From: a virus
IMG/VR virus record: IMGVR_UViG_3300042691_035869
Coordinates: 1 to 24,899 of that record
DNA length: 24,899 nucleotides
Direction: 5' to 3' (one strand)
Under the pieces are notes generated by a model that was not told the origin of the DNA, did no database searches, and saw only the letters and a list, made by a program, of their open reading frames with translations. The position numbers and the translations under genes were made by a program. Each line of letters starts with the position of its first letter. Positions within the stretch are counted from its first letter, which is position 1. This document shows, one piece after another, positions 3,115 to 20,893 of this stretch.

Positions 3115-4630
3115 CGTGTAGCCATTCGTAGTTGTTGATTAGTTTAAGTTTTTCGTTATCGTTTTTGTTTGCTTCGCCATATAGCTTGCCCATCAATGCA
3201 CCTCGAATTGTCTCACGACCGTATTGTTCTTCAGCACCAACACTGCACCACGTGAACAGTCTGTCTAATGTTTCACTTGATTGTTGCCTGTCAATAACTT
3301 GGCTAGATAGTTTGACACATTCACGGAAAGCAGTACGCCAAGAACTAAACTCATCTGTGTTAAACTTGTGTATGTTGCTTATGATGTGTACAGGCTCATA
3401 CAGTGTGCTAATGCTGGTAGTCATATCTACTTTATCAGTACTCATACGCATGGTAGCAAGACGAGGAAGCAGTTTAATTCCACCGTGACCGTATACTAAT
3501 TTGTTTACAGGATTGATAGAACGAAATACTCTGACAGTAGGTTGTTCGTAAAACTTCACATCATTGTATACAAAGTTAAAATCATCGTGTATGATTGCAT
3601 CACCATCTACTACCCAAAAGTAATCAGTCTGACACATCTTTGCCGCACGTATGTGTGCATTGTGTATACCCTGAACCCCACTCAATACTTTAGTACGGGG
3701 GAAACGTTCTTTAACTTTGTTGAAATTTTCTTCTGCTTCGGGTTCGTTGTTGTGAATGAATACAATATCATACTTTGGGGTATAGTTTACAGGGCTACGT
3801 GTTGGGTTAGTAATACGGGTCCTGTAATCACTACATACCCAACCTTGTAGTGCTATCCCGATGTTATTATCGTTGGTCTTTTCTTTTATCAATATACCTA
3901 GTACATTTACTTCTTCTAATAATGTCCCAGGCATTACATTTGTCATATGCTCAAACAGTTTATCAAGGAATGAAAAATTCTTAACGTTGTTTGAACCGTC
4001 CCAGTAATTGACCTTGAGCATAAAGTAAGCTAGTCTTGCACCATAAACAGCGTATAGTCCGTTCTCTATATCTTCGCCAATGTGCATCCAACGCCATATC
4101 CTATCATAATTACGCCAGTCTATGTTATCATCACGTGTGAGTTTTATGACTTCACGGAAGCCTGCACGCCATGCTTGTAGTGGGCTAGCATTAATGTGCA
4201 AATCGCTACCTATATTGTTTAGTTCTATGTACTTGTTTAACACAAAGTCAATGCTATCGTCATCACCGTTTTCGTGTGTACGCATTTCTATGATATGTTT
4301 AACAGGCCAGCATTTGATACCACCATTTCCATAACTAGTGCCATTGACAATGTTATATCCTGCATAGCTTATAACATCCTCATCCGAATACTCTATATCA
4401 ATATCAGTTGTATAGAAGTCATCTCTGACCCAATTGTCTCCGTCAATGATGACAACACGGTCAGTTGTTGCTAGTTTAGCACATTCTTTGTGTGCAGTAT
4501 CACTACCCTCTACCCCATGCACTCTTAGAGCATTTGGGTTTAGAGTTAATAAATGTTGATAGTTTTCTTCACAGTTTGGTTCATCATAGCTTAGAAACAC
4601 TGTGGTATAGTCTGAGGGATTAAATCGCAT
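3089..4630 (-). CDS. Tandem-duplicated glycosyltransferase-like protein
   Basis: 513 aa, built from two homologous halves. Matching landmarks are VVIIDGDNWVRDDF (about 59-72) and FWVVDGDAIIHDDF in the second half; YGNGGIKCWP and YGHGGIKLLP; AWRAGFREVIKL and SWRTAFRECVKL. Each half opens with a beta-strand (TTVFLSYDEP, DIVFIHNNEP) and keeps a DGD motif, as expected for a GT-A type nucleotide-sugar-binding fold with a metal-binding DxD. The donor and acceptor are unknown. First gene of the minus-strand operon (overlaps the radical SAM gene by 26 bp). The ATG at 4630 follows a TATAAATA element by 5 nt and has no Shine-Dalgarno, so it may be leaderless. The intragenic duplication is seen directly; the catalytic assignment is inference. 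Confidence 0.8.
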   Translation of the reverse strand: MRFNPSDYTTVFLSYDEPNCEENYQHLLTLNPNALRVHGVEGSDTAHKECAKLATTDRVVIIDGDNWVRDDFYTTDIDIEYSDEDVISYAGYNIVNGTSYGNGGIKCWPVKHIIEMRTHENGDDDSIDFVLNKYIELNNIGSDLHINASPLQAWRAGFREVIKLTRDDNIDWRNYDRIWRWMHIGEDIENGLYAVYGARLAYFMLKVNYWDGSNNVKNFSFLDKLFEHMTNVMPGTLLEEVNVLGILIKEKTNDNNIGIALQGWVCSDYRTRITNPTRSPVNYTPKYDIVFIHNNEPEAEENFNKVKERFPRTKVLSGVQGIHNAHIRAAKMCQTDYFWVVDGDAIIHDDFNFVYNDVKFYEQPTVRVFRSINPVNKLVYGHGGIKLLPRLATMRMSTDKVDMTTSISTLYEPVHIISNIHKFNTDEFSSWRTAFRECVKLSSQVIDRQQSSETLDRLFTWCSVGAEEQYGRETIRGALMGKLYGEANKNDNEKLKLINNYEWLHDEYTKQLQ

Positions 4631-7624: not shown

Positions 7625-7999
7625 ATGAACAAAGAACAAAAAAGCGAGTATGCGAAAGAAAGATATAAAAAGAATAGAGAAAGGTTACTAGAGTATCAGA
7701 ACAAACGATACAACGAAACATTGGATATCTTCCAGCAATGGAGAAAAACTTTGAAGTGTTGTAGATGTGAGGAGAATGATGTTGCTTGTTTAGAGTTTCA
7801 TCATAGCGATCCAGAGACAAAGGAAAATAATGTCGTAAGGATGGTATCTCGCAGTGTGAAGTCTGTTATCAAAGAACTCAAAAAATGTGTTGTAGTTTGT
7901 GCTAATTGTCATCGCAGGATACATGCGTATGACATAAAAACAGACCCTAACACCGAGGATCTAGGAACAAGTTTTGAAAATTTTTTGAAAGAAATTTGA
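7625..7999 (+). CDS. HNH endonuclease (homing type)
   Basis: 124 aa. The N-terminus is a highly basic helix (KSEYAKERYKKNRERLLEYQNKRY), likely for DNA contact. The HNH core follows: CCRC zinc-ligand pair, LEFHHSDP (first catalytic His), then VVCANCHRRIH with the second Cys pair and final His. Small HNH proteins of this kind nick or cut DNA and are common as free-standing homing endonucleases in large phages. The start is set by GAAGGA 8-13 nt before ATG 7625. The stop TGA lies inside the -35 box of the next promoter (7996-8001). Confidence 0.88.
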   Translation: MNKEQKSEYAKERYKKNRERLLEYQNKRYNETLDIFQQWRKTLKCCRCEENDVACLEFHHSDPETKENNVVRMVSRSVKSVIKELKKCVVVCANCHRRIHAYDIKTDPNTEDLGTSFENFLKEI

Positions 8000-9023: not shown

Positions 9024-9100
9024 GCGACCTTAGCTCAGATGGATAGAGCACCAGGCTACGAACTTGGGGGTCAGGAGTTCGAATCTCTTAGGTCGCACCA
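9024..9100 (+). tRNA. tRNA-Arg(ACG)
   Basis: Acceptor GCGACCT/AGGTCGC, D-stem GCTC/GAGC, anticodon loop CTACGAA, T-loop TTCGAAT, CCA encoded. A34 would need conversion to inosine (host TadA) to read CGU/CGC/CGA. First tRNA of the array. Confidence 0.95.
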
Positions 9101-10173: not shown

Positions 10174-10248
10174 GGGTCTTTAGTTCAATGGATAGAATGC
10201 CATGCTTCGAACTTGGAGATGTGGGTTCGATTCCTGCAAGACCCGCCA
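10174..10248 (+). tRNA. tRNA-Arg(TCG)
   Basis: Acceptor GGGTCTT/AAGACCC, anticodon loop CTTCGAA (one T.T in the anticodon stem), G73, CCA encoded. Its first base is about the predicted transcription start, so there may be no 5' leader to trim. Confidence 0.93.
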
Positions 10249-10256
10249 ATACGTGT

Positions 10257-10262
10257 TAAATA
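10257..10262 (+). promoter_or_regulatory. Late-type promoter element (TTAAATA)
   Basis: TAAATA 32 nt before the ATG of the HNH gene, leaving room for a Shine-Dalgarno-led leader. Confidence 0.4.
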
Positions 10263-10294
10263 CTAATAGTGACAAAGCAGAAAAGGAGTACATA

Positions 10295-10855
10295 ATGGCT
10301 GTTCTAGCACTAGATATCTCAGGAGTTCCCCGGCAGTGGATCTCAAATGATGACGCAATTACCTATAAAGCAAAAGATGCCATCGCATGGTCAATGGGGA
10401 ATATTGTGGCTAGATATCGCGGTGGTATTCAAAATGACGGCACATTAAGTTACTTAGAAGCATCTAGTATCATTGCTATCAAAGGTCACGGATTTAATCC
10501 ATACAAACATGCATGTGTCGCACTAAGTAACAAAACATTGTTTGGTCGTGATAGACATGTGTGTGCTTACTGTGGTGAACAGTTTCCTAATTACCATATG
10601 TTAAGTCGTGACCACATTGTTCCGAAGAGCAAAGGTGGTGAAAACACTTGGATGAACGTAGTTACCGCATGTAAAGATTGCAACAGTAATAAAGGTCATA
10701 AAAGTTTGAAGGAAGTGCGTATGGAATTATTGTATGCACCTTATGTACCTAATCATTACGAGAATATGATTCTACAACATAGAACAATTCTCGCAGACCA
10801 AATGGAATACTTGTTAGCAGGTGTTCCCAAGCATAGTAGAATTCTCCTAAGCTAG
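10295..10855 (+). CDS. HNH endonuclease (homing type)
   Basis: 186 aa from ATG 10295, chosen for AAAAGGAG 6 nt upstream; a longer frame from 10202 would run through tRNA-Arg and is not real. The N-terminal 75 residues are of unknown fold (MAVLALDISGVPRQWISND...). The HNH core then follows: VCAYCGEQF zinc pair, LSRDHIVPKSKGG with the catalytic His, and ACKDCNSNKG with the second Cys pair and Asn. It probably cleaves DNA near its own locus to spread among related phages. It sits between tRNA-Arg(TCG) and the Thr/Asn tRNAs, a usual kind of position for free-standing homing genes. Confidence 0.9.
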   Translation: MAVLALDISGVPRQWISNDDAITYKAKDAIAWSMGNIVARYRGGIQNDGTLSYLEASSIIAIKGHGFNPYKHACVALSNKTLFGRDRHVCAYCGEQFPNYHMLSRDHIVPKSKGGENTWMNVVTACKDCNSNKGHKSLKEVRMELLYAPYVPNHYENMILQHRTILADQMEYLLAGVPKHSRILLS

Positions 10856-11177: not shown

Positions 11178-11372
11178 ATGTTAGTAAGTAATAACGCAGG
11201 TTATAAATTGTATTGTGAAGTGCGCAAACTTGACGTACACCCACAAGACAATCATGTACGTATATTCACCACATATGACTGGTCTAAAAATCCGGAAGCA
11301 GAACAAAACAAAATTGAGTTGTTCCTTAGTGACATTGAACTTGATGCACTTAGGAAGGCACTTGCATCATGA
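11178..11372 (+). CDS. Small unknown protein
   Basis: 64 aa (MLVSNNAGYKLYCEVRKLDV...), looks like two or three beta-strands followed by an acidic helix (IELFLSDIELDALRKALAS). No family recognised. GGAG lies 5 nt before ATG 11178. It follows tRNA-Asn by 19 nt and is probably co-transcribed with it. The last 6 bases overlap the end of the convergent J-domain gene. Confidence 0.75.
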   Translation: MLVSNNAGYKLYCEVRKLDVHPQDNHVRIFTTYDWSKNPEAEQNKIELFLSDIELDALRKALAS

Positions 11373-11954
11373 TTGGATCATTAACTGCCATTCTTCTAAA
11401 CTAAAGTGGTAGTCTTCTAAGGTTTCTAACATTTTTGCAAAAACTATCAATGTTCTTCTATGAGTGGTTAATTCATTTTGACGTTGAGTAATTTTTTCTT
11501 CTACTAGGGTTTTTAGTAAATTCTCACCCTCTTTTTTCATTTTGATTTTTTGAGCAATGGTGTTTAACTTTTTTATTGTGTTATTACATTCTAGTATGAC
11601 ATTGTTTGCTTGATGTTGTGCCTGATGAATGTCAACTTTCATTCTTAAAATCAAATCATCAACATCAGGATTTATATGTTGAGTAAAATGAGTTATCATA
11701 TTAGACAGTCTAGTGTATACCTCATTGTCAATATTTGTATCGTCATAATGTTCACCGGTAGAATCGTAATGGGCACGTTTTGTAGGATCACCTAGTGTTT
11801 CATAAGCTAATTTAATTCGTTTGAATTTTTCTTCATTTCCACCTGGCCTGTCTGGGTGATGAATTTGTGCTAGAATTCTATATTTTTGTTTGATTTCTTC
11901 GGAAGTACAATTTTTAGGTAATTCTAGTTCATCATATAAGGTAGGTTGTTCCAT
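11367..11954 (-). CDS. J-domain (DnaJ-like) protein, copy 1
   Basis: 195 aa. N-terminal J domain (residues 5-65) with the HPD motif at His33-Pro34-Asp35, preceded by the basic helix EEIKQKYRILAQIHH and followed by FKRIKLAYETLGDPTKRAHYD. There is no G/F region or zinc finger. The remainder is mostly predicted coiled helix rich in Gln/Lys/Glu. J domains stimulate ATP hydrolysis by Hsp70 (DnaK), so this probably recruits host DnaK to a phage target. A paralogue of equal length lies at 20143-20730. ATG 11954 is 5 nt after a TAAATA element and no Shine-Dalgarno is seen. Confidence 0.9.
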   Translation of the reverse strand: MEQPTLYDELELPKNCTSEEIKQKYRILAQIHHPDRPGGNEEKFKRIKLAYETLGDPTKRAHYDSTGEHYDDTNIDNEVYTRLSNMITHFTQHINPDVDDLILRMKVDIHQAQHQANNVILECNNTIKKLNTIAQKIKMKKEGENLLKTLVEEKITQRQNELTTHRRTLIVFAKMLETLEDYHFSLEEWQLMIQS

Positions 11955-13734: not shown

Positions 13735-13951
13735 AGTTTTGTTAGAGTGTTAGCAAGAGAAAGACACACTACTATGGATTCTTCGAAGGTCCTTGTAGTG
13801 TAGAGCAGAGAGCGGGGTCAGTACCCGTCTAAGAGCATAATGGAATGCACTGGTTAAGTATCCCAAGTGACGTACCGAGTCCCGGTCGACTTTATTACAC
13901 GGGTGAATGATGTCTATAACTATGGAGATATTACTTTAACAAATTTAATAT
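13735..13951 (+). other. Non-coding tRNA spacer with hairpins
   Basis: 217 bases without an ORF. The main structure is 13766-13801: ACACTAC/GTAGTGT closing over GGA/TCC and an inner CTTCGAAG. Weaker: CGGG/CCCG near 13813. No T-run terminator or promoter seen. Confidence 0.4.
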
Positions 13952-14039
13952 GGAGTATTGGCCGAGCGGTTAAGGCAATGGATTGCTAATCCATCACTGG
14001 GCAACCGGTGGGTAGGTTCGATTCCTACATACTCCGCCA
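13952..14039 (+). tRNA. tRNA-Ser(GCT)
   Basis: Class II, 88 nt. Acceptor GGAGTAT/ATACTCC, anticodon stem ATGGA/TCCAT with loop TTGCTAA, long variable arm, G73, CCA encoded. Confidence 0.95.
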
Positions 14040-14100
14040 GAACGTTCTGAGTGTCTCCGGATACTGTGACCCGCAAAGTAGTAGTATGACCCGTTAGGCA

Positions 14101-14106
14101 TAAATA
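14101..14106 (+). promoter_or_regulatory. Late-type promoter element (CATAAATA)
   Basis: TAAATA 5 nt before the ATG of the GIY-YIG gene. Confidence 0.55.
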
Positions 14107-14111
14107 ATAGT

Positions 14112-14648
14112 ATGAAAGAATACTATGTTTATGCCTATTTGAGAGAAGACGGAACTCCTTACTATATTGGTAAAGGTAAAGAAAGACGTGCCTGGGAGCA
14201 ACATCGTTCTAACGGAAAAGGAGTTCATACTCCATCTGATTATAAACGAATAGTGTTATTATATGAAGATTTAGATGAACCCGCCGCATTTAATTTAGAA
14301 ACTGAATTGATTTCAAAGTATGGAAGACAAGATTTAGGAACAGGTATATTAAAAAATATGACCAATGGTGGCGAAGGATCTGCAGGAACTTCACCAGAAA
14401 CTAATTGGAAAAAAGGTAGTTCGAAAAGAAGTAAAACGACTAGTAGTAAAACTAGACAAAAAATAAGCAAAGCAAATAAAAATCGTGATTACCCAAACAA
14501 TCATACCGAGGAAGTTAGACAAAAGTTAAGCGAGACAACAAAGAAATCTTGGGAAACAAGACCGAGAACAATGTCCGAAGAACAAAAGAAAAAGATATCA
14601 GACGCCGCAAAAGAACGCTGGCGTTTGAGGAAGAACCCGCCCAGGTAA
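14112..14648 (+). CDS. GIY-YIG homing endonuclease with NUMOD3-type repeats
   Basis: 178 aa. The GIY-YIG catalytic domain is at the N-terminus: YYVYAYLR stands for the GIY strand and YYIGKGKERRAWEQH for YIG, with the conserved Arg in that stretch; a Glu/Asn-containing TNGGEG lies near residue 83. The C-terminal half carries repeated basic helices (TRQKISKANKNR, VRQKLSETTKKSW, QKKKISDAAKERW), the NUMOD3-type DNA-binding modules of phage GIY-YIG enzymes. It likely cuts an allelic tRNA spacer in related phages. No Shine-Dalgarno; possible leaderless start. A GCCCAG/CTGGGC hairpin spans its stop codon, and a folded non-coding segment follows. Confidence 0.92.
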   Translation: MKEYYVYAYLREDGTPYYIGKGKERRAWEQHRSNGKGVHTPSDYKRIVLLYEDLDEPAAFNLETELISKYGRQDLGTGILKNMTNGGEGSAGTSPETNWKKGSSKRSKTTSSKTRQKISKANKNRDYPNNHTEEVRQKLSETTKKSWETRPRTMSEEQKKKISDAAKERWRLRKNPPR

Positions 14649-14831
14649 CGCTGGGCTAGTCTGATCCAGACGAAGGAGAAGTAAGTTCGTAACTTACGGG
14701 TGGTAGTCTTTAAACCCAAAGGCCGCTGGCAATGCGAGAACGGTCCCTGTCGGGAAGCGGGTGGAAGGAGTGTGTGATGGGTATGATAGCGTCATATCTT
14801 TCTGTACTATAATTACCGCCGGGGGATGCAG
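14649..14831 (+). other. Non-coding segment after the GIY-YIG gene, several hairpins
   Basis: No ORF. GTCTG-ATC-CAGAC (14659-14671), GTAAGTT-CGT-AACTTAC (14681-14697), TATGA/TCATA near 14784. GC content is visibly higher than in the adjacent coding DNA. A group I intron was considered but no P7/P3 core or split exon was found. Confidence 0.35.
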
Positions 14832-14919
14832 AGCATATTGAAGCACATTAAAGATAGGGTAGTAGCGGTTCATATGAACCTTAGTACATACCGAGGTAGT
14901 TAGTGTGTTTCAATATGCT
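14832..14919 (+). ncRNA. Candidate small RNA with a 20-bp closing stem
   Basis: 14832-14851 pairs with 14900-14919 over 20 bp with two G.T pairs. The interior holds GGTTC-ATAT-GAACC (14867-14880), and GGTA...GTA facing TAC...TACC extends it. TTTTA follows the stem, so it could be a stand-alone RNA with its own terminator, or the processed end of a longer RNA. It ends 5 nt before tRNA-Cys. Confidence 0.5.
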
Positions 14920-14924
14920 TTTAT

Positions 14925-15000
14925 GTAGGTGTGTACTGAAAGGCTAGGTAGCGGATTGCAAATCCGTGCTATGCAGGTTCGAATCCTGTCACCTACTCCA
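14925..15000 (+). tRNA. tRNA-Cys(GCA)
   Basis: Acceptor GTAGGTG/CACCTAC, anticodon stem GCGGA/TCCGT with loop TTGCAAA, T73 (cysteine identity), CCA encoded. Short D-stem TAC/GTA. Confidence 0.93.
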
Positions 15001-15050
15001 AATTTTTTAACAAAGGAAACGATATGAAGCGCAGTAAGCGATAGTGTCGT

Positions 15051-15072
15051 CATAGACTTCCGTAGGTCTATG
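15051..15072 (+). other. Hairpin in tRNA spacer
   Basis: CATAGACTT-CCGT-AGGTCTATG, 9 bp with one G.T. Upstream, AAAGGAA precedes a 6-codon mini-ORF (15024-15044), perhaps a gene remnant. Confidence 0.35.
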
Positions 15073-15103
15073 ATTGGCACGTAAAATCAAACATACGACT
15101 TAT

Positions 15104-15180
15104 GGAAGTATAGCTCAACTGGCTAGAGCAACCGGCTTTTAACCGGTAGGTTCAGGGTTCAAGTCCCTGTGCTTCTACCA
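15104..15180 (+). tRNA. tRNA-Lys(TTT)
   Basis: Acceptor GGAAGTA/TGCTTCT with G1.T72, anticodon stem ACCGG/CCGGT with loop CTTTTAA, T-stem CAGGG/CCCTG, CCA encoded. Confidence 0.95.
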
Positions 15181-15256
15181 TATAAAAACATATTTGACTA
15201 AACTCGGGTTCATCCGTGATAGTAATTGCTACTATATCAAGTGTGTTTCTATATGG

Positions 15257-15264
15257 TATAAATA
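15257..15264 (+). promoter_or_regulatory. T4-late-type promoter element TATAAATA
   Basis: Exact TATAAATA 5 nt before ATG 15270; the predicted +1 is the A of ATG. Confidence 0.6.
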
Positions 15265-15269
15265 TTTAC

Positions 15270-15458
15270 ATGATAGTTCAATCGATTCATAGCTCTTGGG
15301 ATATGGTGTACAACCAATATCGCAATACAGAGTTTAAAACTCTTGTAGACCCAGTGTCTCATAAGAAAATAATAGAGATTGTTCAATACCTTTATGATAA
15401 GACGGGTCAAATAGAACCCACTAATACTAAAGGAAACAATGTTGATACCAAAGCGTAA
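15270..15458 (+). CDS. Small unknown protein
   Basis: 62 aa (MIVQSIHSSWDMVYNQYRNTE...), helical, with KKIIEIVQYLYDKTGQIEP as the longest helix. No family recognised. A longer frame from GTG 15216 exists, but ATG 15270 sits exactly 5 nt after TATAAATA, the spacing seen at other genes here, so the short form is preferred. The stop is 3 nt before tRNA-Trp, so gene and tRNA share a transcript. Confidence 0.65.
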   Translation: MIVQSIHSSWDMVYNQYRNTEFKTLVDPVSHKKIIEIVQYLYDKTGQIEPTNTKGNNVDTKA

Positions 15459-15461
15459 TAT

Positions 15462-15537
15462 ATCTCGGTAGCTCAATTGGCAGAGCACTGGTCTCCAAAA
15501 CCAGGGGTTGTAAGTTCGAGGCTTACCCGGGATGCCA
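15462..15537 (+). tRNA. tRNA-Trp(CCA)
   Basis: Acceptor ATCTCGG/CCGGGAT, anticodon stem CTGGT/ACCAG with loop CTCCAAA, G73 (tryptophan identity), CCA encoded. Confidence 0.95.
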
Positions 15538-15545
15538 AAAATATT

Positions 15546-15638
15546 GCCCCTGTAGTTTAATGGTTAAAACGGCGGATTTATATCCCGTAAGCAACAGATA
15601 ATTGGTTCATGTGGGTTCGATTCCCTCCAGGGGTACCA
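15546..15638 (+). tRNA. Unusual tRNA, probably Ile(TAT), with long variable region
   Basis: Acceptor GCCCCTG/CAGGGGT (G1.T72), D-stem GTTT/AAAC, T-loop TTCGATT, CCA encoded. The anticodon loop reads TTTATAT, giving TAT (isoleucine, AUA), but the stem GCGGA/CCCGT has an A.C and a G.T pair. The 22-nt variable region is class II length, which isoleucine tRNAs do not have, and forms only a weak arm (AAC/GTT). Either an insertion in an ordinary tRNA or a class II tRNA with a switched anticodon. Confidence 0.7.
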
Positions 15639-15644
15639 AACAGT

Positions 15645-15673
15645 TTGACAACATGTAGCAAGTGCTATATAAT
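15645..15673 (+). promoter_or_regulatory. Sigma70-type promoter (TTGACA-17-TATAAT)
   Basis: Full consensus: -35 15645-15650, -10 15668-15673. Drives tRNA(CAT) at 15685. Confidence 0.82.
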
Positions 15674-15684
15674 AAAAGAATGTT

Positions 15685-15761
15685 GCGCTTGTAGCTCAGT
15701 TGGTTAGAGCAGAGGACTCATAATCCTTTGGTCGCGGGTTCAAGTCCCTCCGAGCGCACCA
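15685..15761 (+). tRNA. tRNA(CAT): Met or Ile2
   Basis: Acceptor GCGCTTG/CGAGCGC, anticodon stem GAGGA/TCCTT with loop CTCATAA, A73, CCA encoded. The run TTGGTCG before GGGTTCAAGTCC resembles tRNA-Ile2, whose C34 is turned to lysidine by TilS to read AUA; elongator Met is the alternative. Confidence 0.93.
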
Positions 15762-15762
15762 A

Positions 15763-15924
15763 TTATAATGAGCGTATGAATTCCATTGCATCATTGACAT
15801 TAGTGAAAAACTTCATTGTCAATTCGTGATTATAAATATCACGTGAAAAGATGTAACAGGCGTCATCACTCATTGATAAGTGAATGTGCAGTCCTGATCT
15901 AGTGATAGCGTCATACGTGTGCAT
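15763..15924 (-). CDS. Small unknown protein on the minus strand
   Basis: 53 aa (MHTYDAITRSGLHIHLSMSDDACYIF...), below usual length cut-offs. Reads as two or three strands and a C-terminal helix (VNDAMEFIRSL). No family recognised. Support for a real gene is the exact TATAAATA 4 nt before its ATG, the element used by the other minus-strand genes here, and a frame that fills the whole gap between tRNA(CAT) and tRNA-Gly. Convergent with tRNA(CAT), ending 1 nt from its CCA. Confidence 0.65.
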   Translation of the reverse strand: MHTYDAITRSGLHIHLSMSDDACYIFSRDIYNHELTMKFFTNVNDAMEFIRSL

Positions 15925-15928
15925 TATG

Positions 15929-15936
15929 TATTTATA
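15929..15936 (-). promoter_or_regulatory. T4-late-type promoter element TATAAATA
   Basis: Exact TATAAATA on the minus strand, 4 nt before the ATG of the 53-aa gene and 1 nt from divergent tRNA-Gly. Confidence 0.6.
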
Positions 15937-15937
15937 T

Positions 15938-16011
15938 GCGGGGTTCGTATAGTGGTAATACCTTAGCCTTCCAAGCTAATGCTGACAGTTCGATTCTGTT
16001 ACCCCGCTCCA
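15938..16011 (+). tRNA. tRNA-Gly(TCC)
   Basis: Acceptor GCGGGGT/ACCCCGC, anticodon stem TTAGC/GCTAA with loop CTTCCAA, T73, CCA encoded. Confidence 0.95.
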
Positions 16012-16022
16012 ATAACAAGGCC

Positions 16023-16075
16023 CAGACCTCTGTGATAACTAACCGGTAAATGGTTATCATACGTCTGAGTTTTTC
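16023..16075 (+). terminator. Intrinsic terminator-like hairpin
   Basis: CAGAC/GTCTG and TGATAAC/GTTATCA (12 bp in two helices around a small internal loop) followed by AGTTTTTC. It closes the tRNA-Gly transcript just before the next promoter. Confidence 0.65.
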
Positions 16076-16089
16076 TTACCCTAATATAG

Positions 16090-16118
16090 TTGACAGATAT
16101 GTATTTCTCTGTTATACT
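16090..16118 (+). promoter_or_regulatory. Sigma70-type promoter (TTGACA-17-TATACT)
   Basis: -35 16090-16095, -10 16113-16118, followed at 16125-16137 by the boxA-like TGTTCTTTAAAAA. Drives tRNA-Leu(TAG) and the genes after it. Confidence 0.8.
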
Positions 16119-16143
16119 ATAGTCTGTTCTTTAAAAAGTTAAT

Positions 16144-16227
16144 GCGCAAGTGGTGGAATGGTATACACGATGGTCTTAGAAGCCATTGCCGAAGGGATTG
16201 AGAGTTCGAGTCTCTCCTTGCGCACCA
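16144..16227 (+). tRNA. tRNA-Leu(TAG)
   Basis: Class II, 84 nt. Acceptor GCGCAAG/CTTGCGC, anticodon stem ATGGT/GCCAT with loop CTTAGAA, T-stem GAGAG/CTCTC, CCA encoded. Confidence 0.95.
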
Positions 16228-16232
16228 ATATT

Positions 16233-16397
16233 ATGATAACAGAATACAAAGTTATAAACGCTACATATGAAGAATTTCATAAAGAAGTAGCAAAGTTATT
16301 GTCTGAAGGCTGGCAACCGCAAGGTGGTGTTAGTGTAGTTCGTAGTTGGTATAGTAATGATCCAACAACTTATTACTTTCAGGCATTTGTTAGATGA
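16233..16397 (+). CDS. DUF1737-like small protein
   Basis: 54 aa from ATG 16233 (MITEYKVINATYEEFHKEVAK...). The centre EVAKLLSEGWQPQGGVSV matches the signature of DUF1737 proteins, small cytoplasmic proteins of unknown role common in bacteria and phages (family known; match by eye). An aromatic tail (TTYYFQAFVR) follows. A longer frame begins inside tRNA-Leu and is not real. It starts 5 nt after the tRNA CCA with no Shine-Dalgarno, so translation may depend on processing of the tRNA 3' end. Confidence 0.8.
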   Translation: MITEYKVINATYEEFHKEVAKLLSEGWQPQGGVSVVRSWYSNDPTTYYFQAFVR

Positions 16398-16424
16398 TTT
16401 TAACTGAAAATTTCGTCTACCGCA

Positions 16425-16430
16425 TAAATA
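16425..16430 (+). promoter_or_regulatory. Late-type promoter element (CATAAATA)
   Basis: TAAATA 17 nt before the HNH gene, leaving a leader of about 12 nt with AGGAG (16437-16441). Confidence 0.5.
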
Positions 16431-16447
16431 CATCATAGGAGACTATT

Positions 16448-17050
16448 ATGTATTGTGATTATGGATGCGGTCAAGAATCATCTTTCAAATTGAAGAATGG
16501 TAAAAATTGTTGTGCTACGAGAACAGCAAGTTGCCCTGAACAAAAAAGAAAAAATTCAGAAGCAACAAAGAAAGTTTATGATGACGGTAAGAGATTACCG
16601 GCAGCTCTGGTATATGAAAATTTATCAGAAGAAGTTAAAAAACGAATGAATTGGAATAAGGGAAACTTTTCTAATACATTGTTTGTTTATAATGGTGTAG
16701 GTAATCATAAAGCTGTGTTGATTCAAGAAAAAGGTCACCAGTGTGAAGATTGTAGATTGACTGAATGGAAATCTAAACCTATACCGTTAGAGTTAGAACA
16801 TGTTGATGGTGACAACAAAAATAACACAAGAGAAAATCTTAAGTTGTTATGTTGTAATTGTCATGCTTTGACTCCAACTTGGAGAGGTAGAAATATTAAT
16901 TCAGGTAAAGTTAAAGTAAGTGACCAAGAACTATTGACAGCATTGCAAGAATGTAGTAATATACGTCAAGCATTGCAGAAAGTGGGGTTATCTCCGAAAG
17001 GTGGTAACTACCAAAGAGCAAATAAATTAAATGCGACCTTGGTGAAATAG
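16448..17050 (+). CDS. HNH endonuclease next to the intron-bearing tRNA-Leu
   Basis: 200 aa. N-terminal zinc-finger-like YCDYGCGQ...NCCATRTASCPEQK, then a basic linker, then the HNH core (about 97-145): QCEDCRL, LELEHVDGDNKNN (catalytic His), LLCCNCHALTPTW. The C-terminus (QELLTALQECSNIRQALQKVGL) looks like a helix-turn-helix. AGGAG 6 nt upstream sets ATG 16448. Its last six codons, including the stop, are the first 18 nt of tRNA-Leu(UAA). It is outside the intron, so it may be a free-standing enzyme that mobilises the neighbouring intron by cutting intronless tRNA-Leu (collaborative homing); this is inference. Confidence 0.9.
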   Translation: MYCDYGCGQESSFKLKNGKNCCATRTASCPEQKRKNSEATKKVYDDGKRLPAALVYENLSEEVKKRMNWNKGNFSNTLFVYNGVGNHKAVLIQEKGHQCEDCRLTEWKSKPIPLELEHVDGDNKNNTRENLKLLCCNCHALTPTWRGRNINSGKVKVSDQELLTALQECSNIRQALQKVGLSPKGGNYQRANKLNATLVK

Positions 17051-17330
17051 GTAGACACAAGAGACTTGAGAGTAAAATTTGAGTGCCCTAGTGGAAATGC
17101 TAGGAGTAGAACCCGTCAAATTCGGTGAAGGCTGTAAAATGCTAATACCGAGCGAAGCCTAAGTAGAAATACTTTTGAACGTGTAGAGACTAGACGGCGG
17201 GCATCTAAAGCAGTAATGCTATGATGAAGGTATAGTCCAGACCACAAAACTGTAAAGGTAGTGAAAACTATAGTGGTAAGAAAATCTCTCGCCGAAAGGC
17301 ATCCCGGTTCGATTCCGGGAGGTCGCACCA
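17033..17330 (+). tRNA. tRNA-Leu(TAA) interrupted by a group I intron
   Basis: Exons 17033-17067 and 17281-17330. Joined, they give an 85-nt class II tRNA: acceptor GCGACCT/AGGTCGC, anticodon stem AGAGA/TCTCT with loop CTTAAAA (anticodon TAA), variable arm GCCGAAAGGC, T-stem CCCGG/CCGGG, A73, CCA encoded. The interruption lies between U34 and A35. The first 18 nt also encode the end of the upstream HNH protein. Confidence 0.94.
17068..17280 (+). ncRNA. Group I self-splicing intron (213 nt)
   Basis: Core elements in order. P1: exon ACTT (17064-17067) with GAGT (17081-17084), giving the required U.G at the 5' splice site. P2: CCTAG/CTAGG (17087-17104). P3: CCCG/CGGG (17112-17115, 17198-17201). 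P4: TTCGGT/ACCGAG (17121-17126, 17147-17152). P5: GGC/GCT. P6a: AAGTA-GAAA-TACTT. P7: GACTA/TAGTC (17188-17192, 17233-17237). P8: CATC/GATG with inner AGCA-GTAA-TGCT. P9: ACCAC/GTGGT with inner TAGT-GAAA-ACTA. Terminal omega-G is 17280. Three GNRA loops fit tertiary docking. AGAGACTAGACGG and GTATAGTCC align with the equivalent core of the Anabaena tRNA-Leu intron as I recall it. No intron ORF. Confidence 0.93.
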
Positions 17331-17336
17331 GAATTT

Positions 17337-17410
17337 GGGGGATTGATGTAATGGGAGCCTGGGACCTTTGCAAGGTTTTCGTGGGAGTTCGATTCTCCCA
17401 TCCTCCACCA
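17337..17410 (+). tRNA. tRNA-Ala(TGC)
   Basis: Acceptor GGGGGAT/ATCCTCC (one G.T), anticodon stem GGACC/GGTTT with loop TTTGCAA, T-stem GGGAG/CTCCC, CCA encoded. The D-stem is poor, with one mismatch. Confidence 0.88.
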
Positions 17411-17417
17411 AATACGA

Positions 17418-17423
17418 TAAATA
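17418..17423 (+). promoter_or_regulatory. Late-type promoter element (GATAAATA)
   Basis: TAAATA 18 nt before ATG 17442, leaving a short leader with AGAGGA. Confidence 0.5.
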
Positions 17424-17441
17424 CTGCATAGAGGAAACAAT

Positions 17442-17615
17442 ATGCAATTAAAAGTCTTTATCAATGATAAACTGTATAAAACGGTAACAGTACCGGGAGA
17501 AACATATAATCCTAATTTCATCTGGCCTGAAATAGAAGCTGACAGAGATTCAGGATTATTGACAACATTTAATCTAAACAAAGGTTTATCAATTCGCTAC
17601 GAAAAAGTAGCATAA
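17442..17615 (+). CDS. Small unknown protein
   Basis: 57 aa (MQLKVFINDKLYKTVTVPGETYNP...), probably a small all-beta fold: strands LKVFIN and YKTVTV, then FIWPEIEADRDSGLL. No family recognised. AGAGGA 7 nt before the ATG and a late-type element support it. It lies between tRNA-Ala and the initiator-like tRNA. Confidence 0.75.
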   Translation: MQLKVFINDKLYKTVTVPGETYNPNFIWPEIEADRDSGLLTTFNLNKGLSIRYEKVA

Positions 17616-17622
17616 CAGTTTA

Positions 17623-17698
17623 CGCGGGGAGGGCCCGGTCACCACTTCGGTCTCATAAGCCAGGAGCATCGGCAGTTCAAATCTGTCCCCCGCATCCA
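17623..17698 (+). tRNA. Initiator-like tRNA-fMet(CAT)
   Basis: Acceptor CGCGGGG/CCCCGCA has C1.A72 unpaired, the hallmark of bacterial initiator tRNA that allows formylation and blocks EF-Tu. Loop CTCATAA, T-loop TTCAAAT, T73, CCA encoded. The anticodon stem (TCGGT/GCCAG) lacks the three consecutive G-C pairs of a classical initiator and has a C.A mismatch (or a bulged A). Confidence 0.82.
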
Positions 17699-17712
17699 AA
17701 TAGGAAAATTAT

Positions 17713-17862
17713 ATGCCAATGTATGAAACGACAGTTCGCACACCACAGGGTGAAATTAAAGATAAAGTCTTTGCACCAAATGTACAAGAAGCTAAAAAGC
17801 TACTTGAACAACGTCATGGTCCACGAAACGTTCCATATATACCGCATATAATACCAAGTTAA
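17713..17862 (+). CDS. Small unknown protein
   Basis: 49 aa (MPMYETTVRTPQGEIKDKVFAP...), basic, with a helix VQEAKKLLEQRHG and a Pro/Ile-rich end (PYIPHIIPS). Resembles small phage proteins that pair a short beta hairpin with a helix; no family recognised. AGGAAA 6 nt before ATG 17713 is a weak ribosome site. It ends 2 nt before tRNA-Pro. Confidence 0.7.
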   Translation: MPMYETTVRTPQGEIKDKVFAPNVQEAKKLLEQRHGPRNVPYIPHIIPS

Positions 17863-17864
17863 TT

Positions 17865-17941
17865 CGGAGTGTAGAACAGCCCGGTAGTTCGCATCGTTTG
17901 GGACGATGAGGTCCAAGGTTCGAATCCTTGTACTCCGACCA
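17865..17941 (+). tRNA. tRNA-Pro(TGG)
   Basis: Acceptor CGGAGTG/TACTCCG, anticodon stem CATCG/CGATG with loop TTTGGGA, T-stem CAAGG/CCTTG, A73, CCA encoded. Confidence 0.95.
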
Positions 17942-17964
17942 ATTTTTTAAAAAGGAAAAATAGT

Positions 17965-18126
17965 ATGACATGTAGAGGTTATGACCCAAAAGCCGTTAAA
18001 ATCGGTAAGTTAGTAAAGATAGCAGGATCTTCGATTCTTGATCCACACAAACGTGGTGATTTTTTTCGTAGCTATACTAAGGTTGCGCAAGAAAATTTGC
18101 GTTCCGGTGGTAGAAAAGAAAAGTAA
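17965..18126 (+). CDS. Small basic unknown protein
   Basis: 53 aa (MTCRGYDPKAVKIGKLVKIAG...), very basic with an Arg/Lys tail (RSGGRKEK), so it could bind nucleic acid. No family recognised. AAAGGA lies 8 nt before ATG 17965. It lies between tRNA-Pro and tRNA-Val, continuing the alternation of tRNA and small gene. Confidence 0.75.
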   Translation: MTCRGYDPKAVKIGKLVKIAGSSILDPHKRGDFFRSYTKVAQENLRSGGRKEK

Positions 18127-18136
18127 TTTTTAAAAG

Positions 18137-18211
18137 GCATCGTTAGCTCAGGGGTAGAGCGTCTCCTTTACACGGAGAGGGTCCGCGGTTCGAAACCGTG
18201 ACGATGTACCA
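18137..18211 (+). tRNA. tRNA-Val(TAC)
   Basis: Acceptor GCATCGT/ACGATGT with G1.T72, anticodon stem TCTCC/GGAGA with loop TTTACAC, A73, CCA encoded. Confidence 0.95.
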
Positions 18212-18217
18212 AATACA

Positions 18218-19381
18218 ATGAGTAATTACATACCCTTACCACAAACAATATCAGCTTTGCCTATGGCAGGGTGTGAGTGGTATTGGTATGACATTTACGA
18301 TATAATAAATTCATCTATATACAGAGAGAACTTATTCAATAGTGTTGGTAGTTCTGCTAAAGATTATTTTTTGTTTCGAAAAGGAACAACCATGCGTGGA
18401 TCGTACAGTAGATATGATAGACTTGACTTTCCGCAAAAATTACTGACAAACAGTGTTTATTGTATCCAACCTGATTTATCGGATACATGTGCTACATCAT
18501 TTGAAACCATTACTAATAATAGAGCATTGATACTATTAGAAGTTGCAAAAAAATACAGGCAAGTTTTTTTATTTTATAGCGGCGGACTTGATAGTACTAC
18601 TATACTATGCTCTCTGTTAAAAAATTGGGGTAGTCAAGACTTAGCTAGAATTACATTGGTTATGAATCAATATTCAATAGATGAAAATAAAAACTTTTAT
18701 GAAAATTTTATTCAGAATAAATTTACTACCGTTAGCACAACTGATTATTTTAGCAATAGATTAATGAACAATGAATCGCTGTATATTACAGGTGACCTCG
18801 GTGGTGCTCTAATGAATAGTGATAACTCTGACGTTACTAAAATATTTTCAAAAACATATAATAAACCCTGGAAGTCTAACGTAGATAGTATACTTAAATA
18901 TTTTACTGATAATTCTACAACTGCAAACGGCATTAAAACGTTTGAAAAGATAACACAAACCTTTGACAAGCTACACTATGAAGTTGAATCAATTAACGAT
19001 TTCTTTTGGTGGGTCAATTTCAATTGGGGTTGGGATATAGAATTGTATTACGCTATTTGGTACTGGAGACTTTCACCCGAAACTGATACAAAAGATTTTT
19101 TAGAAAAAAATCTGTTCTTGTGGTTTAATACTATGGAATATCAAGTATGGGCCATCACTAATAGTGAACCGAAGATAGGTGATTTGGTTAGTATGGACAA
19201 ACTACCTATGAAAAAATATATTTACGATTTTAATAATGATCGTGATTATTTTTTGTATAAAAAAGATGAGGCCTCAGTTTCAAAAAATAAATCGTTAATA
19301 ACTACGAGGCTCTGCGGGGTCGATAGTAATTATAACATTTATTATCGCAAGCTAAATAATAGTATACCTTCAAGGAAATAA
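18218..19381 (+). CDS. PP-loop ATPase-like protein (asparagine-synthase/ATP-pyrophosphatase fold)
   Basis: 387 aa. The middle carries SGGLDST (Ser121-Thr127) after the hydrophobic strand QVFLFY, the PP-loop that binds ATP in N-type pyrophosphatases (asparagine synthetase, NAD and GMP synthetase, tRNA thiolases). It is followed by TTILCSLLKNWG, and later LYITGDLGGALM. Family members adenylate a carboxylate or carbonyl for amidation. There is no N-terminal Cys glutaminase domain, so it would use ammonia or another nucleophile. The C-terminal 180 residues are aromatic-rich (FFWWVNFNWGWDIE). The substrate is unknown; surface-sugar amidation or tRNA modification are both possible. The start is 6 nt after tRNA-Val with no Shine-Dalgarno. 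Confidence 0.78.
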   Translation: MSNYIPLPQTISALPMAGCEWYWYDIYDIINSSIYRENLFNSVGSSAKDYFLFRKGTTMRGSYSRYDRLDFPQKLLTNSVYCIQPDLSDTCATSFETITNNRALILLEVAKKYRQVFLFYSGGLDSTTILCSLLKNWGSQDLARITLVMNQYSIDENKNFYENFIQNKFTTVSTTDYFSNRLMNNESLYITGDLGGALMNSDNSDVTKIFSKTYNKPWKSNVDSILKYFTDNSTTANGIKTFEKITQTFDKLHYEVESINDFFWWVNFNWGWDIELYYAIWYWRLSPETDTKDFLEKNLFLWFNTMEYQVWAITNSEPKIGDLVSMDKLPMKKYIYDFNNDRDYFLYKKDEASVSKNKSLITTRLCGVDSNYNIYYRKLNNSIPSRK

Positions 19382-19383
19382 TC

Positions 19384-19689
19384 ATGAGCTACCAAATTAC
19401 AATAACTTTCAAAAAAACTACAGAGACTCCGGAAAATGCATTCAGTACTATTCCGATTCGTGAACCTAATGAAAATGTTACACAAGCACAAATTACTGCA
19501 TTAGATAGTGCTTATCCGCACCAATTTGAAATGCGTATGATACAGGATCAACTAACGATCACTTATACATATAACTCAAAAGAAGATTATGACGCAGTAG
19601 TTAATCATGCTGTTACTCAGGATTTACGTACAAGACGATTAGCTTGGGCGGAACTCAATAAAGTTACAATCTCTACAAGAGAAGTGTAA
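19384..19689 (+). CDS. Unknown protein
   Basis: 101 aa. Begins ITITFKKTTETPENAF and contains LTITYTYNSKEDYDAVVNHA, i.e. two strand-helix units typical of a small ferredoxin-like alpha/beta fold (inference). No family recognised. AAGGAAA 6 nt before the ATG; it starts 2 nt after the PP-loop gene, so it is co-translated. It ends just before tRNA-Gly. Confidence 0.8.
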   Translation: MSYQITITFKKTTETPENAFSTIPIREPNENVTQAQITALDSAYPHQFEMRMIQDQLTITYTYNSKEDYDAVVNHAVTQDLRTRRLAWAELNKVTISTREV

Positions 19690-20142: not shown

Positions 20143-20730
20143 TTATTGACTAACTTCGGTTAGTGTCGCTGCAAGCTCGATAAAACCATATTGATAATCT
20201 TTTAATAAAACTATCATATGTTCAAGTGTTTCTTTCCGATGTTGAAAGTTTTTTAAATCTTTGTTGCGAGTTGATAGTTGAGTTTCTAAAAATCCTAAAA
20301 GAAGATTTTCTTCTTGTGGATTTTTATGTATCAATTTTTTCTTTGCAACATTCAGATTTACAATCTGTTGATTACATTGTGCTATGCTCAATTCATTTCG
20401 AGTTAACTCTCCGTTAACTTCATAACGCATAGTGTCTATTAAATTTGCATGGTGTAAATCAATATTAGCAATTACGGTAAAGAAAACGTTAGCTAGTTGT
20501 GAAATTGCCTCAGCCCCTACATTTAGGGATTCTGCGGTAGAGTTAGTTTCATCATATAATTTCCTGCGACTTGGGTCAATTAAAACCTCGTATGCAAATT
20601 TTATTCGTTGAAATTTTTCAGTATTTCCTCCTTTATCGGGATGGTGTATATTAGCTAAATGACGATATTGGTGTTTGATTTCTTCAATCGTGCAATTTCT
20701 GGGTAATTCTAGTTCTTCATAAAGAGTCAT
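20143..20730 (-). CDS. J-domain (DnaJ-like) protein, copy 2
   Basis: 195 aa from ATG 20730, the same length as copy 1. J domain with HPD at His30-Pro31-Asp32 (NIHHPDKGGN) and FAYEVLIDPSRRKLYD. The first residues LYEELELPRNCTIEEIK are nearly identical to copy 1, while the helical tail has diverged, as expected after duplication with a change of client. It would act through host DnaK. A longer frame from 20766 adds 12 residues, but 20730 is preferred because TAAATA lies 5 nt upstream and it gives the same N-terminus as copy 1. Confidence 0.9.
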   Translation of the reverse strand: MTLYEELELPRNCTIEEIKHQYRHLANIHHPDKGGNTEKFQRIKFAYEVLIDPSRRKLYDETNSTAESLNVGAEAISQLANVFFTVIANIDLHHANLIDTMRYEVNGELTRNELSIAQCNQQIVNLNVAKKKLIHKNPQEENLLLGFLETQLSTRNKDLKNFQHRKETLEHMIVLLKDYQYGFIELAATLTEVSQ

Positions 20731-20735
20731 ACTAG

Positions 20736-20741
20736 TATTTA
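20736..20741 (-). promoter_or_regulatory. Late-type promoter element (CTAAATA)
   Basis: Minus-strand TAAATA, 5 nt before the preferred ATG of J-domain copy 2. Confidence 0.55.
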
Positions 20742-20893
20742 GTTTGTCCAAATAAGTAGTAAACATTAGCGATGAATGTTATAATTTATGTTAACAATAA
20801 AGTAAAGTGAAATGACTACAGCAATTTAAAAAATTCTAAAGTAAAATACCCATAGAAAGCGGTTGTAGAACAGTAGCAGACATTATTAATTAT

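Follow-up and report, generated by a model that had tools for sequence, protein, structure and literature searches.

The window analysed here, a stretch of 24,899 bases from a virus record, carries a tRNA gene array on the plus strand between positions 9024 and 20125, in which ARAGORN identified 28 uninterrupted tRNA genes and a split gene makes 29. A 5.6-kb section of the window (13948-19547) recurs at 100% identity within a 124,442-base viral contig encoding a T4-type gp23 capsid protein (E 3e-102), the best named matches to which are Vibrio phage 2.275.O (66.8%), Sinorhizobium phage Phosso (65.0%) and the 121Q-like coliphages (64.2%). As such the split gene comes from a T4-type phage, and probably a large one. 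Among the contigs of six relatives gp23 matches were found in three, two of them above the cut-off, with no terminase match in any of the six. DnaJ-domain proteins are encoded on the minus strand both within the array (11367-11954) and just past its end (20143-20766).

The split gene, tRNA-Leu(UAA), occupies 17033-17330 on the plus strand and is interrupted between U34 and A35 by an insert of 213 nt. Exon 1 (17033-17067) ends in AGAGACTT with U34 as its last base, the insert runs from 17068 to a terminal G at 17280, and exon 2 (17281-17330) starts AAAATCTCT and includes an encoded CCA at 17328-17330. In intron mode ARAGORN reported tRNA-Leu(taa) with a 213-nt intron over the whole of 17033-17330 and read the joined exons as a normal 85-nt tRNA-Leu(taa), while with default settings it did not detect the split gene. 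The exon and intron boundaries proposed in the first-pass annotation were exact to the base, as were its terminal G and its placing of the insertion between U34 and A35, the position known from cyanobacteria and plastids. EBPR podovirus 3 has a homologous gene that lacks the intron and shows the site uninterrupted; it agrees with the joined exons at 66 of 82 positions, an unbroken identical run of 40 spanning the junction. No second tRNA-Leu(UAA) was found by ARAGORN within the window. The intron contains no plus-strand ORF of 60 aa or more, and hence no endonuclease ORF, with two minus-strand reading frames traversing it.

Immediately upstream, and overlapping exon 1 by its last 18 nt, lies a free-standing F-TflIV-like HNH endonuclease gene (16448-17050, plus strand), recognised by its match to PHROG HNH families (phrog_14736, E 2.1e-29), its similarity to intron-encoded HNH proteins and the context of its relatives; a Pfam search of the protein found nothing at 0.001. 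In BLASTP comparisons the protein resembled HNH proteins that other phages encode within their tRNA-Leu introns (63% at most across 52-54 residues, E as low as 2e-21), with a small IRQ...GGNY domain that is C-terminal in the window protein and N-terminal in several of the intron-encoded relatives. The three other endonuclease candidates of the window gave no such match to intron-encoded HNH proteins. These are 7625-7999, HNH-like by eye with no Pfam match, 10202-10855, an HNH protein by both Pfam and PHROG, and 14112-14648, a homing endonuclease by PHROG.

A covariance search with the Rfam group I model, suggested as a check in the first-pass annotation, matched RF00028 to 17064-17255 with 57.4 bits (E 2.3e-12) against a gathering cut-off of 50. 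The fold was followed in an alignment (A1) of 66 phage genes, the window and 65 others, drawn from 69 non-redundant genes of which three were removed by hand. In P1 (17065-17083, plus strand) C17065, U17066, U17067 and G17068 pair with G17083, A17082, G17081 and U17080 (alignment columns 41-44 and 58-61), with U17067.G17081 as the splice-site wobble pair, which is U.G in all 66 genes. The guanosine-binding helix P7, placed within the P3/P7 pseudoknot from the alignment and its covariation, is formed by GACUA (17188-17192) and UAGUC (17233-17237), both on the plus strand, and an A-U pair in it is replaced by U-A in 13 of the 66 genes.

RNAalifold predicted 67 pairs on A1, 52 of them with two-sided changes, and the structure used for counting, to which P7 was added as a pseudoknot and from which the variable-arm stem and two outer P8 pairs were omitted, again held 67 pairs. 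In this structure 98.2% of base-pair cells paired and two-sided changes were seen in 49 of the 67 pairs, scores that are favoured by the structure having come from A1 itself with P7 placed by hand. The covariation score was 0.580 against 0.172 in shuffles; on each of five measures all 500 shuffles scored lower, and slid controls gave just 32-41% paired cells. By helix the paired cells were 97.7% in P1, 87.9% and 92.0% in the two parts of P2, 97.5% in P3, 98.0% in P4, 98.5% in P5, 99.0% in P6, 99.7% in P7, 100% in P8, and 98.8% and 100% in two P9 helices. Two-sided changes in each of P3, P7 and P8 indicate that the P3-P9 core and its P3/P7 pseudoknot have been kept by compensatory change. Covariation over the 66 genes thus backs the P1 with its splice-site U.G and the P2-P9 helices that had been read from the window by itself; the GNRA loops noted there are present, although by eye they number four (three GAAA and one GUAA) and not three. 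Judged from its sequence, the insert that splits this phage tRNA gene is a well-formed group I intron. It is compact, with GNRA loops on P2 and P9 and without a large P5 extension, a general build like that of subgroup IC3, to which it may or may not belong. Five related loci (L002, L003, L005, L438 and L439) gave no RF00028 match even at E 0.01.

Split genes of this kind were sought among 325 viral loci, the window included, gathered by pattern scans of viral contigs, mostly with intron-directed patterns, and by searches of phage records, and among 117 bacterial loci gathered via a P7 pattern. A strict finder, demanding acceptor, anticodon and T stems, a P7-like motif, an intron-final G and the loop YTT|AAR, accepted split tRNA-Leu(UAA) in at least 176 of the viral loci (136 distinct introns) and at least 53 of the bacterial loci, cyanobacterial ones among them, counts that describe enriched sets rather than natural frequency and include loci that repeat one another (L091 and L461 duplicate the window sequence) and so are not independent cases. 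Fisher tests on the locus counts were set aside. All 176 phage genes and all 53 bacterial genes accepted have the register CTT|AAAA, an agreement only partly independent because the finder itself required TT before the intron, AA after it and G at its end. Among named phages, Agrobacterium phage Atu_ph07 carries the split gene with a 278-nt intron, a 735-kb huge phage carries it in LR756501 with a match at the equal place in LR756503, a 595-kb huge phage has a 700-nt intron, and the Lak megaphages have it in Lak-B1, with matches covering 94% or more of the query in ten Lak-B and Lak-C1 records. At the split gene nothing but hypothetical proteins is annotated in the Atu_ph07 record, and the huge-phage and Lak records are unannotated there. 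The same tRNA-Leu(UAA) site is also split in proteobacteria and other bacteria besides cyanobacteria, such that the earlier description of it as the cyanobacterial/plastid site was right as to position and too narrow as a label. The first-pass annotation had likewise missed these other bacterial carriers, the other phage contigs with the split gene and the HNH gene overlapping the tRNA.

In Lak-B1 (L438, 1171-1916) two group I-like introns seem to interrupt the tRNA-Leu(UAA), the D-loop one (GGT|AGAC) measuring 309 nt and the anticodon-loop one 348 nt; once both are removed ARAGORN reads a normal tRNA-Leu(taa), and Rfam at E 0.01 matches neither. Several candidates were discarded. At least 13 viral pattern-scan matches, counted in the first 60 misses, were chance matches in intronless tRNA-Leu genes, ARAGORN introns longer than 1000 nt were set aside as probable false joins, and ARAGORN calls of Tyr(ata), Ser(aga) and similar proved to be tRNA-Leu(UAA) with a shifted boundary. 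In four phages with unannotated matches to exon 2 only (L440-L443) ARAGORN found no split gene.

Introns of this kind seem to be present in other phage tRNAs too, with that of Met(CAU) in L423 passing the RF00028 cut-off (61.5) and those of Thr in L431 (49.6) and Lys in L367 (38.3) and L354 (38.2) falling under it, while Arg(UCU) genes are candidate carriers only. On the minus strand of L367, at 3451-3721, there is a permuted tmRNA match (RF04321, 70.4 bits, cut-off 47), the tRNA-Lys with its group I-like intron lying elsewhere on the contig. In Microcoleus phage My-WqHQDG (L439, 1311-1596) part of an annotated 286-bp tRNA-Arg resembles the 3′ part of the window intron; ARAGORN with a P7 filter found no split gene there, and Rfam at E 0.01 matched nothing. 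Outside tRNA genes, phage group I introns have core blocks matching the window intron and are flanked by genes for capsid (L004, L009), DnaB helicase (L006, L010), DNA polymerase (L007), primase (L490) and hypothetical proteins (L008, L011); L008, L009 and L011 pass the RF00028 cut-off, which L004, L006, L007 and L010 do not reach. The primase intron of the crAss-like phage cr116_1 matches the Lak tRNA-Leu intron in two blocks, at 78% and 85% identity, and shares with it the CTT exon end and the TTTGAGTGC guide. This sharing of exon end, guide and core blocks suggests movement between protein and tRNA genes.

Relatives of the window HNH were found inside 22 of 33 long phage tRNA-Leu introns, some of which are near-duplicates. 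Around the 143 short-intron genes the family lay within 900 nt upstream of 20, within 900 nt downstream of 16 and only farther off in five, and the remaining 102 had no HNH relative in the stretch examined, so that the HNH is not required for the presence of the intron. An HNH was inside, or within 200 nt of, 57 of 176 split tRNA-Leu genes (41 of 136 distinct introns) compared with 39 of 1273 other intronless tRNAs. A first contrast of these 57 of 176 with 0 of 23 intronless tRNA-Leu(UAA) genes came from intron-seeded scans. In an HNH-seeded scan of 37 loci, which include the window's own contig (L461) and several near-duplicates, 22 lay within 30 nt of tRNA-Leu(UAA), 15 with the intron and seven without it, and 15 did not. 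Intronless tRNA-Leu(UAA) genes are adjoined by close relatives in L454, L455, L459 and L460 (two near-duplicate pairs), by distant relatives in L466, L473 and L476 and, among the matches listed, by relatives in the T4-type coliphage ACG-C40 and Aeromonas phage avDM5. The matches listed also include relatives beside Leu(UAG) in SmurfNell and the 484-kb huge phage LR756508, beside Asn in Lozinak and beside Tyr in BlueNGold, and the family adjoins tRNA-Leu(CAA) and Arg genes as well.

The tie between HNH and tRNA is therefore independent of the intron, and HNH proximity alone was rejected as proof of intron homing once the HNH-seeded scan had placed the family beside intronless tRNA-Leu(UAA). In the gene contexts compared, the HNH family goes together with tRNA genes, most of all tRNA-Leu, irrespective of the intron. 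Since its relatives sit both inside tRNA-Leu introns and beside intronless tRNA-Leu genes, the window HNH probably serves the tRNA-Leu locus. In L454 and L455 (2501-3100, translated in L454 and with the same letters in L455) the HNH frame runs through the 5′ half of the intronless tRNA-Leu(UAA), where the anticodon TAA serves as its stop. The bacterial tRNA-Leu introns L277 (687 nt) and L331 (677 nt) encode the same HNH family and thus the endonuclease-bearing form would seem not to be confined to phages in this data set.

The highest identity of the window intron is 94.1% with any other non-redundant phage copy, 71.5% with a tRNA-Leu intron from bacteria other than cyanobacteria and 59.6% with any of the 10 cyanobacterial introns. 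In a tree of 240 cores the window fell in a 112-row group of phage tRNA introns and other phage introns that included three bacterial rows (SH 89). In a 116-row tree of whole tRNA-Leu introns it fell in a phage-only clade of 46 rows (89/80), with 33 of the 37 non-cyanobacterial bacterial rows and one phage row forming a separate clade (98/99) and the 10 cyanobacterial rows forming one clade (100/100) on a long stem. The cyanobacterial introns stood apart from the window's clade in both trees, whereas in a third tree of 89 rows, from which 24 long or oddly composed rows had been removed beforehand and in which the window, L002, L003, the 10 cyanobacterial and three phage non-tRNA rows were fixed and the others drawn at random by group, the cyanobacterial clade was nested among phage introns. 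AU tests rejected neither the exclusion of the cyanobacterial introns from the phage group (p 0.365) nor their union with the bacterial introns (p 0.175).

Taken together, these observations argue with considerable confidence for a tRNA-Leu(UAA) of a large T4-type phage, split at U34/A35 by an ORF-less group I intron of a phage-borne family and accompanied by an HNH endonuclease of a family associated with tRNA genes. From the anatomy, the pre-tRNA would fold such that P1 arises from pairing of the exon 1 CUU with the internal guide GAG, a guanosine docked in P7 would attack after U34, and exon 1 would then attack after the terminal G, restoring the anticodon loop. The family to which the intron belongs appears to occupy tRNA-Leu(UAA) in many phage contigs, with relatives in phage protein genes and other phage tRNAs. 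The HNH would most likely cut alleles of the locus, in which case gene conversion could carry endonuclease, tRNA and intron together, a scenario for and against which the balance is roughly equal.

That the gene is instead a dead tRNA holding an unremoved remnant is very improbable. Phage tRNA genes can decay, but here the exon stems, core and guide are intact and compensatory change is seen in the tRNA and intron helices alike across the 66 phage genes. A more serious alternative, rated somewhat short of an even chance, is that the neighbouring HNH is incidental, a free-standing endonuclease of tRNA clusters that spreads itself and renders no service to the intron. The relatives adjoining intronless tRNA-Leu(UAA) in ACG-C40, avDM5 and L454, L455, L459 and L460 are in keeping with such a self-serving element; the homologues inside 22 of the 33 long tRNA-Leu introns of other phages argue against it, since an HNH located inside the intron must move with it. 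Whether the window HNH itself mobilises the intron would seem about equally likely either way.

As to descent, the first-pass annotation had raised a special tie of the window intron to the cyanobacterial lineage, and this was not supported. Were the intron an offshoot, carried by phages, of the old cyanobacterial/plastid tRNA-Leu lineage, the identical tRNA and position and the nesting of the cyanobacterial clade inside the phage group in the 89-row tree would follow naturally, but identity to the cyanobacterial introns is lower than that to other bacterial introns, the window lies in the all-phage 46-row clade, and two of the three trees keep the cyanobacterial introns away from it, making this descent improbable. 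It is less improbable, though still unlikely, that group I lineages struck the same anticodon-loop site several times independently, the CUU exon end and stable stem offering a good target. Related introns in bacterial tRNAs called Arg(CCU), Met(CAU) and Thr by ARAGORN, and the use of the same CTT/guide pairing by the cr116_1 primase intron, are consistent with such repeated hits, although phage and bacterial tRNA-Leu introns have core sequence, guide and register in common, and many independent hits are unneeded because the phage label requires only six changes in the 116-row Leu-only tree. Beyond the preferred reading of a phage-borne intron family, a broader and rather doubtful proposal is that phages form a reservoir of tRNA-Leu(UAA) group I introns, an endonuclease-assisted family that shuttles between genes for tRNAs and genes for proteins and was separately captured by proteobacteria and by cyanobacteria, and hence plastids. 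The cyanobacterial/plastid tRNA-Leu intron is usually regarded as an old vertical trait. Its origin is open to testing because copies with, beside and without an endonuclease exist, as do loci with and without the intron.

In the available part of a 2014 review the phage introns seen to that date were all in protein-coding genes, despite the many phage tRNA genes (PMC3984707), and another paper describes the preference of phage group I introns for genes of nucleotide synthesis and DNA metabolism (PMC12350094). Introns in Lak phage tRNAs were described as 'enigmatic' and, to the knowledge of those authors, unreported before, with no class given in the accessible sections (Devoto 2019; PMC6784885), and tRNA introns in Lak and other jumbo phages are mentioned without a class in the passages available from two further papers (PMC8346664; PMC13037316). 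The word 'intron' is absent from the main text of both the Atu_ph07 paper (PMC6102473) and the huge-phage paper (PMC7162821). Among the papers listed by a literature search, with preprints and most subscription papers outside its scope, none dealt with group I introns in phage tRNA-Leu, though one may exist. The window intron is thus one member of a large phage family that is only partly known in print. The phage tRNA introns described here are group I introns and are present in many large-phage contigs, where they are easily missed because default ARAGORN skips the window gene and RF00028 misses several relatives. Decoding of UUA by such a phage tRNA would depend on RNA splicing during infection.

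Among known systems the cyanobacterial/plastid tRNA-Leu(UAA) intron shares with that of the window the tRNA, the U34|A35 position and the CTT|AAAA register. The window intron differs from the 10 cyanobacterial copies in being no more than 59.6% identical to them and phage-borne, with several of its phage relatives enclosing an HNH gene, something not known from cyanobacterial tRNA-Leu introns. Other bacterial tRNA-Leu(UAA) introns have the site and register of the window and mostly form a clade separate from its phage clade. Of the phage introns outside tRNA genes, that of pYD6-A (L008) is 90.7% identical over 75 nt and, unlike the window intron, is not in a tRNA gene. The Lak tRNA introns are likewise in phage tRNA genes, with no class given in the accessible part of the report, and the Lak-B1 Leu(UAA) insert differs from the intron in tRNA-Tyr that those authors name for the baboon genomes (PMC6784885). 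The HNH of the window is 46% identical over 98 aa to the F-TflIV-like HNH proteins of T4- and T5-type phages, which are annotated as F-TflIV or HNH, and in ACG-C40 the F-TflIV-like gene ends just before a tRNA-Leu(UAA) that, unlike that of the window, is intronless.
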